Assembly (NCBI GenBank): GCA_028684815.1
Contig: JAQUFE010000001.1
Location: 1-64,000 of the forward strand
Length of the DNA: 64,000 nucleotides
Source of the DNA: Sulfurimonas sp.
GTDB lineage: Bacteria > Campylobacterota > Campylobacteria > Campylobacterales > Sulfurimonadaceae
Reading direction: 5' to 3'
Under the pieces are notes generated by a model that did no database searches, was not told the origin of the DNA, and saw nothing but the letters and a program-made list of their open reading frames with translations. This document shows positions 58,694 to 61,887 of this stretch, piece after piece. Each line of letters opens with the position of its first letter. Position 1 is the first letter of the stretch. The position numbers and the translations under genes are program-made.

Positions 58694-58724
58694 ACCAATC
58701 AATAGCTTTCTTAGTGCAATTATT

Positions 58725-59294
58725 TTATCGTATAAAAAGCGACCGATTTGGCAGATTCAATGGTATAGTTGGGAATGAAGTGGTTTTTTCAGGCATAACT
58801 ACAAGAATATATCCGTAAGTCTCTTCATTCCACCATTGGAAAAACTCTTTTTTAGTTTGGACATAATAACCAAAACTCGGATCGAGGATACTTACAAAAT
58901 CTCCGTCATGATTCATAACTACAATAAAATGGGCGTAGTTTTCTCGATTGTCAATACGAGCGATAACGGGAACTTTTAGAGATTCGAATATAGCGGTATC
59001 AATTTTGTAACCAGAAGCGTTAAATCCAAACTCTTTAGAAATTTTCGCCATTTCTAAAAAGCTCAACATGTCGGTAGTAGATGTTTTGTCAAGAACTTGT
59101 TTTTCTCCGATTTGTTCCCCATAGAGATTCATAATCGTTGCCAATGCCGATGCACCACATGAGAGTTCGTAATTCTGTAACACAGTACCTTTGAGCTTTA
59201 AAGTTGAAAAAGGAGTTACTTTAAAATTTGTGTTTTCATTCGCACTTAGCGATAATGCGATGAAAAAAAGTAGCCGAATCAAAACTTGTGCCAT
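58725..59294 (-). CDS. Stand-alone periplasmic C39-family peptidase
   Basis: A 189-residue protein with a signal peptide (residues 1-18) and a papain-like C39 domain. The catalytic set is complete: Gln40 and Cys46 in QNYELSCGASALATIMNLYG, His122 in AHFIVV and Asp138 in ILDPSFGYY. In ABC exporters this domain removes double-glycine leaders; here it has no transporter fused and is exported itself, as FapD is in the functional-amyloid system. The gene overlaps the barrel gene by 16 bases, so the two are translationally coupled. The peptide precursor at 60213 carries a matching leader, making it the likely substrate (inference). Confidence 0.85.
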   Translation of the reverse strand: MAQVLIRLLFFIALSLSANENTNFKVTPFSTLKLKGTVLQNYELSCGASALATIMNLYGEQIGEKQVLDKTSTTDMLSFLEMAKISKEFGFNASGYKIDTAIFESLKVPVIARIDNRENYAHFIVVMNHDGDFVSILDPSFGYYVQTKKEFFQWWNEETYGYILVVMPEKTTSFPTIPLNLPNRSLFIR

Positions 59295-60133
59295 AAGGAG
59301 ATGGAGAGAATAGAATCTGGCGATTTGGATGATCCGCCCATAGTACTTGAAACTGCTAAAGAGTTTTTAGTGTTGAGTGAATATGTTGCACCGATATTAA
59401 AAGTCGAAATCATAGCACTATTAGAATAAGCAACACCATCGATTTTCGTTTCAGTTTGATAGCGTTGCTCCGTTCCTATATCTAGAGCAATTTTTGGGCT
59501 TAAAATGATTGAAAAATCAAGTCCGACTGAGAATGCGTTGCCGTTGTCTATATTGTAATCAGCTATTTCTTTAGAACCGTTATATATGGCTCCTACGGAC
59601 ACAGTTGAAATGACGGGGTCGGAATAATTTCGAAAAGCAAGCTTTGCAGAAAAAGAGTTTACATAAATATTTTTAGTACTCTCAAGATAACGCTCTTTTT
59701 GGTAAATAGAAGCTTGCAACGTCAAATAAGGTTTAAAATCGTAGATTGCATCAAATGAATAAGTCCCTCCAATCCATAACGAATCAAAATCTGTTGAGTT
59801 TTCATGTCCATATAGGTTTAAAATATCATAGTATTCACGCCGTTTGATGCTACCTGTTGCTGTTACCATAGCATCAAAATTTTCCGTTAGATCATATAAA
59901 AACGTTTGTTGCAAACTAAATATTTTTACATCTTGCCAATACTTTCCCTCATTCTCCACTATAAGATCGGGATAGGTTCTAAAAGAATTGGAACTGCCAC
60001 TTGAAAGCGATTGAAATGTGGTAACACTTCTAAGTCCTTGTTGATTTTTAAACATTGAATCCAGCGTAACTGGATCAGAAGCAAATACAATAGTTGTGCA
60101 TACTAATAGTGGTAATAGATATTTTTTTAACAT
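59279..60133 (-). CDS. Outer-membrane beta-barrel protein of the C39 islet
   Basis: A 284-residue protein with a signal peptide (MLKKYLLPLLVCTTIVFA) and alternating amphipathic strands with aromatic girdles (FSAKLAFRNYSDP, AFSVGLDFSIILSPKIALDIGTEQRY, AMISTFNIGATYSL), ending in Trp-His-Lys-Phe, a beta-barrel C-terminal signature. About 12 strands are likely. There is no plug or POTRA domain. The role proposed is a pore for the peptide at 60213, like FapF for Fap amyloid, but no sequence motif proves kinship with FapF. It starts 80 bases after the peptide gene, beyond a hairpin. Confidence 0.7.
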   Translation of the reverse strand: MLKKYLLPLLVCTTIVFASDPVTLDSMFKNQQGLRSVTTFQSLSSGSSNSFRTYPDLIVENEGKYWQDVKIFSLQQTFLYDLTENFDAMVTATGSIKRREYYDILNLYGHENSTDFDSLWIGGTYSFDAIYDFKPYLTLQASIYQKERYLESTKNIYVNSFSAKLAFRNYSDPVISTVSVGAIYNGSKEIADYNIDNGNAFSVGLDFSIILSPKIALDIGTEQRYQTETKIDGVAYSNSAMISTFNIGATYSLNTKNSLAVSSTMGGSSKSPDSILSISLWHKF

Positions 60134-60160
60134 TTATTCTTCTTTTGTGATTTGATATAA

Positions 60161-60184
60161 ACATCACCGAAGTATCGGTGATGT
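60161..60184 (-). terminator. Intercistronic hairpin between peptide and barrel genes
   Basis: ACATCACCGA and TCGGTGATGT pair perfectly (10 bp, 4-base loop). In the direction of the genes the stem is followed by TTATATC, a weak T-run, so it probably acts as a partial terminator or 3' stabiliser that lets the peptide gene be expressed above the downstream barrel and peptidase genes. Confidence 0.6.
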
Positions 60185-60212
60185 AAATTTTTAATCTTTT
60201 ACAATTTAGTAA

Positions 60213-60683
60213 TTAGATTGCAGAAAGATTATTGAGTACCGTATTGAGGTAAGGTGAAAGGATTCCATATGTTGTTGGATTCGTAACCACAGGTGCCGGT
60301 GCCCATATATAAAGATAATTTCTATATACCTTAGTTGGGGGAGTGTTTTTTGGTGTTGTGTGCCCTGCAAGGTATACATTATACCCGCTACTAAGTGTAC
60401 TACCGTATTTTTCAGCGATAATCCAGAGATTTTGTCCTTGGTAAGTTTCGCTTACATAACCCCATGTTTGTTTCATTGTTGGACTTGCAATATTTTTGTC
60501 CATATACACATATGAACCAGCAACAACATTTTTCATTTCATCATCATTAAGTGCAACAGCAGCCGATTCTTCGGCAGAAATAACACCACCTGTTGCTAAT
60601 GCGAGGAGATTGGATTCGGCTGAAAAAGCCGAAACGGACAAGAGAAAAGAAGCCAATAGTGTCTTAAAGAACACTTTTTGCAT
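60213..60683 (-). CDS. Secreted peptide precursor with a Sec signal and a double-glycine-type leader
   Basis: A 156-residue protein. Residues 1-22 are a Sec signal (MQKVFFKTLLASFLLSVSAF). A second leader follows: LNDDEMKNVVAG ending at Gly56, with Leu45 at -12, Glu49 at -8, Met50 at -7, Val53 at -4, Ala55 at -2 and Gly56 at -1, the pattern cleaved by C39 peptidases. The 100-residue mature part begins SYVYMDK, has no Cys and is rich in Tyr, Trp, Pro, Thr and Asn. AGGAG lies 6 bases before the ATG. It is the first gene of the barrel-C39 operon. It could be a bacteriocin-like peptide, a signal or a fibre subunit. Confidence 0.75.
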   Translation of the reverse strand: MQKVFFKTLLASFLLSVSAFSAESNLLALATGGVISAEESAAVALNDDEMKNVVAGSYVYMDKNIASPTMKQTWGYVSETYQGQNLWIIAEKYGSTLSSGYNVYLAGHTTPKNTPPTKVYRNYLYIWAPAPVVTNPTTYGILSPYLNTVLNNLSAI

Positions 60684-60810
60684 AATACAGCTCCTATTTA
60701 ATCTAATGTTAGTCTGTTTTCAAGAATATCGATTATTACCAACGGTAAATGTTCTTGAATGTTGTATTGTGCAAATAATATTCTTAAATAAAACATATTT
60801 TTTATAATTT

Positions 60811-61887
60811 CTATACTCCAAGATTTAACAACTTACCTGAAGTTGGTAATTTTGCATTTTTAAGTGTCTGATAGGCTGATGAGGGTGTGTTATTGTCATT
60901 TTTACTTAGAATTGAATCCTTAGCAATGCTTTGTCCTGAGAGATAACTACTGTAGTTTTCTTTTGTATGACGATCTATTTCTTTCATTAATGTATCGAAC
61001 ATATCAGGATCATCAAAATGTATATTCATCCCATCTGCTAGATTTGTTACATAATCGGCTCCGAATTTATCTGTTAGATATGACTGAAAATCCTGCCCTG
61101 ATTTTAAAAAATTGTAATAGTTTTGTATATTTTCATGTGTTTCTGCACTTACATCCATTTCTTGCATACTAAATAGGCCGAACAATTCACTAACAGAGAT
61201 TTCATTTTCAAATTCACTAGAAGGAACAACGGATGCAACAAAATCTTTGTACAAGTTTTTATATCCTGTAAGGGCATCAGGATCAGACCCAGCATAACCT
61301 CCACCAAAAAATCCTCTTTGTCCCGTATCAAAAGCATCCTTGTCTAAAATATCTGGATTTGTATTAGTTAAGCCTTGAATTTTTCCTGAAATTTGACTAA
61401 CTTCATATGCTTCTGTTTCTGTTCTTTGAATACTGATGGGATTATCCAACAAACTACCGTTCGATTGAAAACTATACGGCATATTTTTGATTTGATCCAC
61501 TGTCATACTTCCGTCAATATCTAAAGTATTACCAGCTACTTTACTAAAAAAACTCCAAACTTTACCCAATGCAGTAACAGGATCATCATTTGAACCAATT
61601 GCTTTAGTATAAGTTTCTGTCATTGCCATTTGGTTTTTATGGATTTTGATATTATCAGGAATCCCCGCCGCTTTATTAAAATCAGTACTAAAAAAACCGT
61701 TTTCATCGACTTTAAATCCCCATTTGGTTGAGATAGTAGCACTATCGCTACTTACAGCTGATAGACTAATCGCATCAGTAGATATTTCAGAAGTCTCTGA
61801 TCTTTTTTTAACGATAGATGCAGAATAAAGTGAAGATGATGTGACACTAGCTATGGACATAATAAGCTCCTTATATAATGGTAACAA
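60811..61887 (-). CDS. Probable flagellum-type secreted protein of unknown function
   Basis: The frame starts at 61887, but the ATG at 61860 (MSIASVTSSSLYSAS) is preceded by AAGGAG and is the likely start, giving about 349 residues. There is no Sec signal; the N-terminus is Ser/Thr-rich and unstructured. KWGFKVDENGFFSTDFNKAAGIPDNIKIHK is a conserved-looking block that recalls Campylobacter flagellum-dependent secreted proteins (Cj0814-like, from memory, not certain). The gene is in the islet, upstream of the peptide precursor on the same strand, 127 bases apart. Confidence 0.55.
   Translation of the reverse strand: MLPLYKELIMSIASVTSSSLYSASIVKKRSETSEISTDAISLSAVSSDSATISTKWGFKVDENGFFSTDFNKAAGIPDNIKIHKNQMAMTETYTKAIGSNDDPVTALGKVWSFFSKVAGNTLDIDGSMTVDQIKNMPYSFQSNGSLLDNPISIQRTETEAYEVSQISGKIQGLTNTNPDILDKDAFDTGQRGFFGGGYAGSDPDALTGYKNLYKDFVASVVPSSEFENEISVSELFGLFSMQEMDVSAETHENIQNYYNFLKSGQDFQSYLTDKFGADYVTNLADGMNIHFDDPDMFDTLMKEIDRHTKENYSSYLSGQSIAKDSILSKNDNNTPSSAYQTLKNAKLPTSGKLLNLGV

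Follow-up and report, generated by a model that had tools for sequence, protein, structure and literature searches.

The window, a 64,000-nt stretch of a Sulfurimonas sp. contig, carries a three-gene cassette that in all likelihood is a two-step secretion unit, in which a precursor would pass the inner membrane by Sec, be cleaved in the periplasm by a C39 peptidase and leave through a FapF-like pore; cleavage and secretion are both inferred. The cassette belongs to a Campylobacterota-wide family, and its pathway represents a variation on the FapD/FapF hybrid route. An earlier note on this DNA had missed the extent of the family, namely its wide distribution, the hypervariability of the payloads, the partner gene and the plasmid-borne forms.

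The open reading frames of the precursor (156 aa; 60683-60213), the outer-membrane barrel (284 aa; 60133-59279) and the exported C39 cysteine peptidase (189 aa; 59294-58725) are neighbours and all lie on the minus strand, in line with the three co-oriented genes that the earlier note had described. Each of the three proteins starts with a hydrophobic stretch ending in an A-x-A-like site (read by eye, without a predictor), and the peptidase is predicted to be periplasmic. The stop of the barrel gene and the start of the C39 gene overlap by 16 nt (59279..59294, minus strand). This overlap is conserved in relatives, being exactly 16 nt in 44 of 50 related pairs, which suggests that barrel and peptidase are translationally coupled. 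Between the precursor and barrel genes lies a perfect 10-bp stem-loop (60161..60184, no strand assigned), which might possibly serve as an expression attenuator or mRNA-end stabiliser and might raise precursor output. This function is an inference, and the element does not go beyond chance (one terminator-like site versus a shuffle mean of 1.5).

The precursor combines a Sec-type signal (approximately residues 1–22), a double-glycine-type leader reaching to G56 and a 100-aa mature part that begins with SYVYMD. The combined leader (residues 1–56; 60516..60683, minus strand) was aligned with 16 related leaders; the related pattern, again behind a Sec-type signal, is D-L-L-A-x-x-(T/S)-x-G...L-x-x-x-E-M-x-x-V-x-G-G. 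In the window, the signal peptide is followed by LLALATGG...LNDDEMKNVVAG, and the predicted cleavage site is V-V-A-G56|S57, with AG instead of the GG that ends the leader in 90 of 92 unique precursors. A GG/GA-type site together with the L-x-x-x-E-M pattern satisfies the criterion for double-glycine substrates processed by C39 peptidases. The leader HMM matched the window precursor with E=9.1e-20, its sole match in the genome, although the window leader was itself among the seeds; several related leaders fall just under the cutoff of NCBIfam TIGR01847. The mature payload (coding region 60213..60515, minus strand) has a calculated pI of 9.1. The earlier note had thus rightly identified a leader-bearing precursor, but its product is a 100-aa protein and not a peptide. 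Separately, a distant second version of the locus (L024-L030, in genomes G144, G036, G126, G176, G085 and G027) encodes a C39 peptidase and, in most cases, a related barrel. In L026, L027, L029 and L030, the leaders of precursor-like genes show the pattern E-M-x-x-T-x-G-E/Q in place of GG, a hint that the last Gly alone is fixed.

The peptidase matched Pfam PF03412 (E=1.1e-22), and Q40, C46, H122 and D138 were invariant in seven relatives, which bears out the complete Gln/Cys/His/Asp site read earlier; the Cys, His and Asp regions also aligned with the PCAT1 peptidase domain (phmmer). When the protein was compared with the FapD profile, as the earlier note had proposed, FapD was indeed the top NCBIfam family (E=2.2e-19), albeit with 69.6 bits, far under the equivalog cutoff of 330. 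FilB (NF050078) came second and failed its criterion (52.3 bits versus a cutoff of 475). The genome (2.27 Mb, 96% complete) contains no further C39 match. Since this single C39 protein is free-standing and has a signal peptide, the criterion of a cytosolic C39 domain on an ABC exporter is not met, and no peptidase-containing ABC exporter was found for the precursor in this genome; the earlier note had seen no ABC transporter with the three genes.

The barrel could be recognised by structure comparison only. Its profile had no sequence match in the PDB up to E=10, and its own Pfam match was weak and below cutoff (PF13505, E=2.4e-4). The AlphaFold2 model was confident (pLDDT 85.3, pTM 0.77), with 12 main strands preceded by a short plug-like helix (residues 24–31). 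In a Foldseek search of the PDB, ranks 1–18 were all FapF chains (E from 2.6e-13), with the COG4313 channel next. VIA-align superposed residues 23–284 of the model on 88–406 of FapF (Z 24.4, rmsd 2.1 over 237 residues), a span that takes in the FapF helical plug, A89-G101 (PMC5557850). At the level of fold, the model therefore qualifies as a FapF-type 12-stranded barrel with an N-terminal helical plug. The likeness does not extend beyond the fold, because identity is only ∼12–16% and the COG4313 channel follows closely (VIA Z 22.6). The periplasmic coiled coil and linker that precede the plug in FapF are absent: the signal peptide ends at about residue 18 and the plug-like helix begins at 24, so that the ∼80-residue N-terminal region of FapF cannot fit. 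A barrel from an unrelated, well-described porin family would have refuted the earlier note; the nearest predicted fold is FapF and not an ordinary porin. Some related barrels are annotated as ‘HmcD domain-containing protein’. We found nothing behind this label: no such match was present in Pfam or NCBIfam, and the literature searched gave no relevant paper. The barrel genes of L020, L023, L037, L045 and L047-L052 contain a stop or frameshift, and C39 and precursors look intact in several of these loci; phase variation was considered and dropped, as no long homopolymer tract was seen at the junctions viewed.

Among 397 Campylobacterota genomes, the leader profile was detected in 53, a strong barrel match in 43 and both in 42. 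Thus, 42 of the 43 strong-barrel genomes also had the leader, versus 11 of the 354 others. The neighbourhoods of relatives, which the earlier note had suggested inspecting, almost always include a precursor with the same Sec and GG leader. Peptidase homologues lying without such a precursor would have counted against the system, and this was not the case: the only strong-barrel genome lacking the leader is G431, whose locus (L150) has a barrel, a C39 peptidase and an upstream partner-like gene (337 aa) with no recognised precursor. Could a porin, a peptidase and a small secreted protein simply be neighbours by chance? The weak Pfam match of the barrel would suit this explanation, but the recurrence of the same gene set in many loci and plasmids, the 16-nt overlap and the 42/43 co-occurrence contradict it, and we regard it as barely conceivable.

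Searching genome contigs with the barrel profile gave 22 loci, in Campylobacter, Helicobacter, Sulfuricurvum, Helicobacteraceae MAGs and one ‘Bacilli’ MAG that is probably misbinned, and a search with the barrel protein gave 47 Campylobacter plasmids; no barrel relatives were found in phage and viral collections. On 7.1–7.3-kb plasmids of C. volucris and C. jejuni (n=2), the annotated cargo comprises only replication and mobilization genes together with barrel, C39, partner and precursor. At this locus, the gene order is unchanged in a relative (G075), whose flanks are 93–94% identical and which has 51 unrelated nt where the window has 58694-60799 (no strand assigned). This empty site marks the cassette as a discrete unit, either gained in the window lineage or lost in G075. 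On a C. upsaliensis plasmid (L055:3856-9436), an integrase gene is flanked by two barrel-C39 copies, which are inverted and share their protein accessions. One related precursor is annotated ‘bacteriocin’ (CP125393.1), and a genome announcement ascribes, with no detail, a bacteriocin gene to a C. jejuni megaplasmid (PMC4882959). We found no description of the cassette family in the openly licensed literature searched, which is weak evidence of absence.

Taken as a secretion unit, the cassette would work as follows. Precursor, barrel and peptidase would all cross the inner membrane by Sec, as inferred from their signal peptides. The periplasmic C39 peptidase would then recognise the leader motif L-x-x-x-E-M-x-x-V-x-G and cut after Gly56, a step that we deduce because the active site is complete, the leader is conserved and leader and machinery co-occur. 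Finally, the basic 100-aa mature protein would exit through the FapF-like, helix-plugged 12-stranded barrel, whose fold is predicted and whose transport activity is inferred. The gene set, the leader, the barrel fold, the co-occurrence, the variability and the linkage to a partner, in contrast, rest on comparison or prediction. Across Campylobacterota, the same machinery would serve precursors that combine a shared leader with hypervariable payloads, and a cognate, mostly acidic and cytoplasmic-looking partner normally comes after each. Against this reading, the window leader ends in AG, the barrels of many relatives are broken, and 11 genomes have the leader with no strong barrel match.

The mature parts of the 92 unique precursors are mostly 90–145 aa long and very diverse, and single genomes encode up to 17 precursors. 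In the array loci L023, L033 and L052, identity is 89–100% among leaders but only 18–38% among mature parts. Likewise, the Campylobacter plasmids L056 and L057 share 100% identical barrels and leaders with mature parts at 43%, whereas L056 and L038 have barrels at 81% and mature parts at 80% identity; payloads thus appear to be exchanged between backbones. The window payload resembles that of L020 only, and chiefly in the leader. Because profile comparison revealed no significant similarity among the payload families, or between them and the window payload, we do not claim a common payload fold. The AlphaFold2 model of payload family A6, from relatives, was too poor for a fold search (pLDDT 54). 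No toxin domain scored above cutoff in the payload search.

These data also bear on whether the payload might be the fibre subunit of a Fap-type functional amyloid, as a FapD-like peptidase and a FapF-like barrel could imply. The earlier note had already doubted that the payload is such a subunit, and our results side with it: the window payload gene has no repeat family beyond short two-copy matches, the precursor matches no Fap subunit family, and the payloads are hypervariable. Furthermore, none of the five window proteins scanned matched FapA, FapB, FapC or FapE, and no amyloid-repeat subunit (FapB/FapC/FapE) was found in the precursor or the neighbours scanned. An amyloid is therefore improbable. 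We also rejected the cassette as a true Fap system, having found neither an amyloid-repeat subunit nor the FapF coiled coil. In Gram-positives, pheromones can carry double-glycine leaders and be processed by C39 peptidases; by this precedent, the payload could be a pheromone or signalling peptide that matures in the periplasm. Its relatives are far larger than known peptide pheromones, at mostly 90–145 aa, and no receptor-like gene recurs beside the precursors, which leaves signalling with very little to recommend it.

What sets most relatives apart is a partner gene. In 84 of 92 cases, the gene following the precursor was unannotated, on the same strand and within 300 bp. The encoded partners lack a signal peptide, are mostly acidic and have Asn/Ser-rich N-termini; at ∼200–450 aa, they are large for immunity proteins. 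The Cj0814 family (NCBIfam NF046095), which NCBI labels as flagellar-dependent secreted, was matched by 14 of 31 partners examined (best E=4.1e-85); for several other partner families, BLAST showed no relation to it. In the openly licensed literature searched, we found no paper on what Cj0814 does; two papers mention it, with abstracts on other topics. Mature and partner families co-vary: 492 pairs were alike in both, compared to a mean of 240 and a maximum of 345 in shuffled data. These permutations, like the binomial figures, treat related sequences as independent, so their significance is overstated, and the partner counts likewise ignore kinship. Median pI was 9.2 for mature parts and 5.3 for partners, and of 76 pairs, 59 combined a basic mature part with an acidic partner. 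Behind ten precursors, two or three partner-family genes stand in tandem, and orphan partners also occur. At L148:5057-6861 (G052), for example, two orphan partner-type genes adjoin, one like the L020 partner and one Cj0814-like, with no precursor. In C. jejuni GP013 (L041:2563-3858, minus strand), precursor and partner are fused in one 431-aa open frame.

In the window, the barrel gene comes next after the precursor, and the usual downstream partner is missing. The gene at position −1 relative to the precursor (60811..61887, minus strand; 358 aa) is Cj0814-like and belongs to the same superfamily as many partner genes elsewhere, with 57.5 bits against NF046095, below the cutoff of 80. It was considered as a cassette member and dropped: G075 keeps the gene without the cassette, which makes it a resident gene.

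The diversity of the payloads, their pairing with an acidic partner, the occurrence of partners in arrays and as orphans, and the small, cargo-poor plasmids together point to a bacteriocin-like competition protein with the partner as an immunity or protective protein. We give this role about an even chance; it is inferred, and neither killing nor immunity is proven. Caution is called for because the partners are large and the Cj0814 family is labelled as flagellar-dependent secreted, and the absence of a toxin domain above cutoff and of the usual partner in the window, where the adjacent Cj0814-like gene is resident, counts against this role. The broader proposition, which we advance tentatively and a little short of an even chance, is that the family comprises polymorphic antibacterial proteins with immunity partners, phylum-wide, chromosome- and plasmid-borne, with ≤17 precursors per genome, exported by Sec, a periplasmic C39 peptidase and a FapF-like barrel and not by ABC or type VI systems. 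The main competing explanation is that payload and partner form a non-toxic secreted or surface pair, for instance in adhesion or colonisation, with the partner leaving via the flagellar export apparatus and immune or phage pressure creating the diversity. The Cj0814 label of 14 of 31 partners, their Asn/Ser-rich N-termini without signal peptides and the presence of as many as 17 precursors in one genome would all be in keeping with such a pair. Tandem and orphan partner arrays, basic/acidic complementarity and small cargo-poor plasmids, in contrast, fit toxin and immunity better. Members of the family are also present in the group to which the window belongs, outside the host-associated Campylobacter and Helicobacter, and the flagellar label is not backed by a paper on Cj0814 function in the literature searched. 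We consider a non-toxic pair unlikely without dismissing it.

If the payloads are indeed bacteriocins, they would make up a system of antagonism that is widespread in Campylobacter and Helicobacter and frequently borne by conjugative plasmids. Apart from the peptidase, nearly all cassette genes are annotated ‘hypothetical protein’. Here, a FapD-like peptidase, a FapF-like pore and a leader-bearing substrate lie side by side, so that a defined substrate is available for direct tests of C39 cleavage in the periplasm and of FapF-type transport.

Among known systems, the Cj0814 family (NF046095) touches only the partners: 14 of 31 in related loci match it, but several partner families are unrelated by BLAST and the window gene is a resident below cutoff. 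The Fil system of Acinetobacter (FilB, NF050078) resembles the cassette in having a free-standing C39 peptidase of a putative surface system; the cassette peptidase, however, lies far below the FilB cutoff of 475, and no pilus genes stand beside it. With double-glycine bacteriocin export by PCAT1/ComA, the cassette shares the C39 fold and active site and a leader pattern ending in GG. It differs in placing the leader behind a Sec signal and in having an exported peptidase that stands alone; a C39-ABC exporter was not found in the genome. The closest parallel is Fap of Pseudomonas, and the Fap analogy drawn in the earlier note holds for the machinery, with FapD as the best NCBIfam family and FapF as the top 18 PDB hits. 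Fap likewise has a Sec-exported C39 protease, a plugged 12-stranded barrel and a substrate crossing in two steps (PMC5557850). Experiments place FapD in the periplasm as a Sec-exported C39 protease, with secretion depending on its catalytic Cys; the substrate of FapD is described as unresolved, and the Fap proteins lack a canonical C39 site (PMC5557850). Unlike Fap, the cassette has no amyloid-repeat subunits and its barrel no N-terminal coiled coil. Its substrates bear an explicit GG-type leader, which Fap proteins lack (PMC5557850), and its payloads, which in relatives come with a partner gene, are hypervariable.
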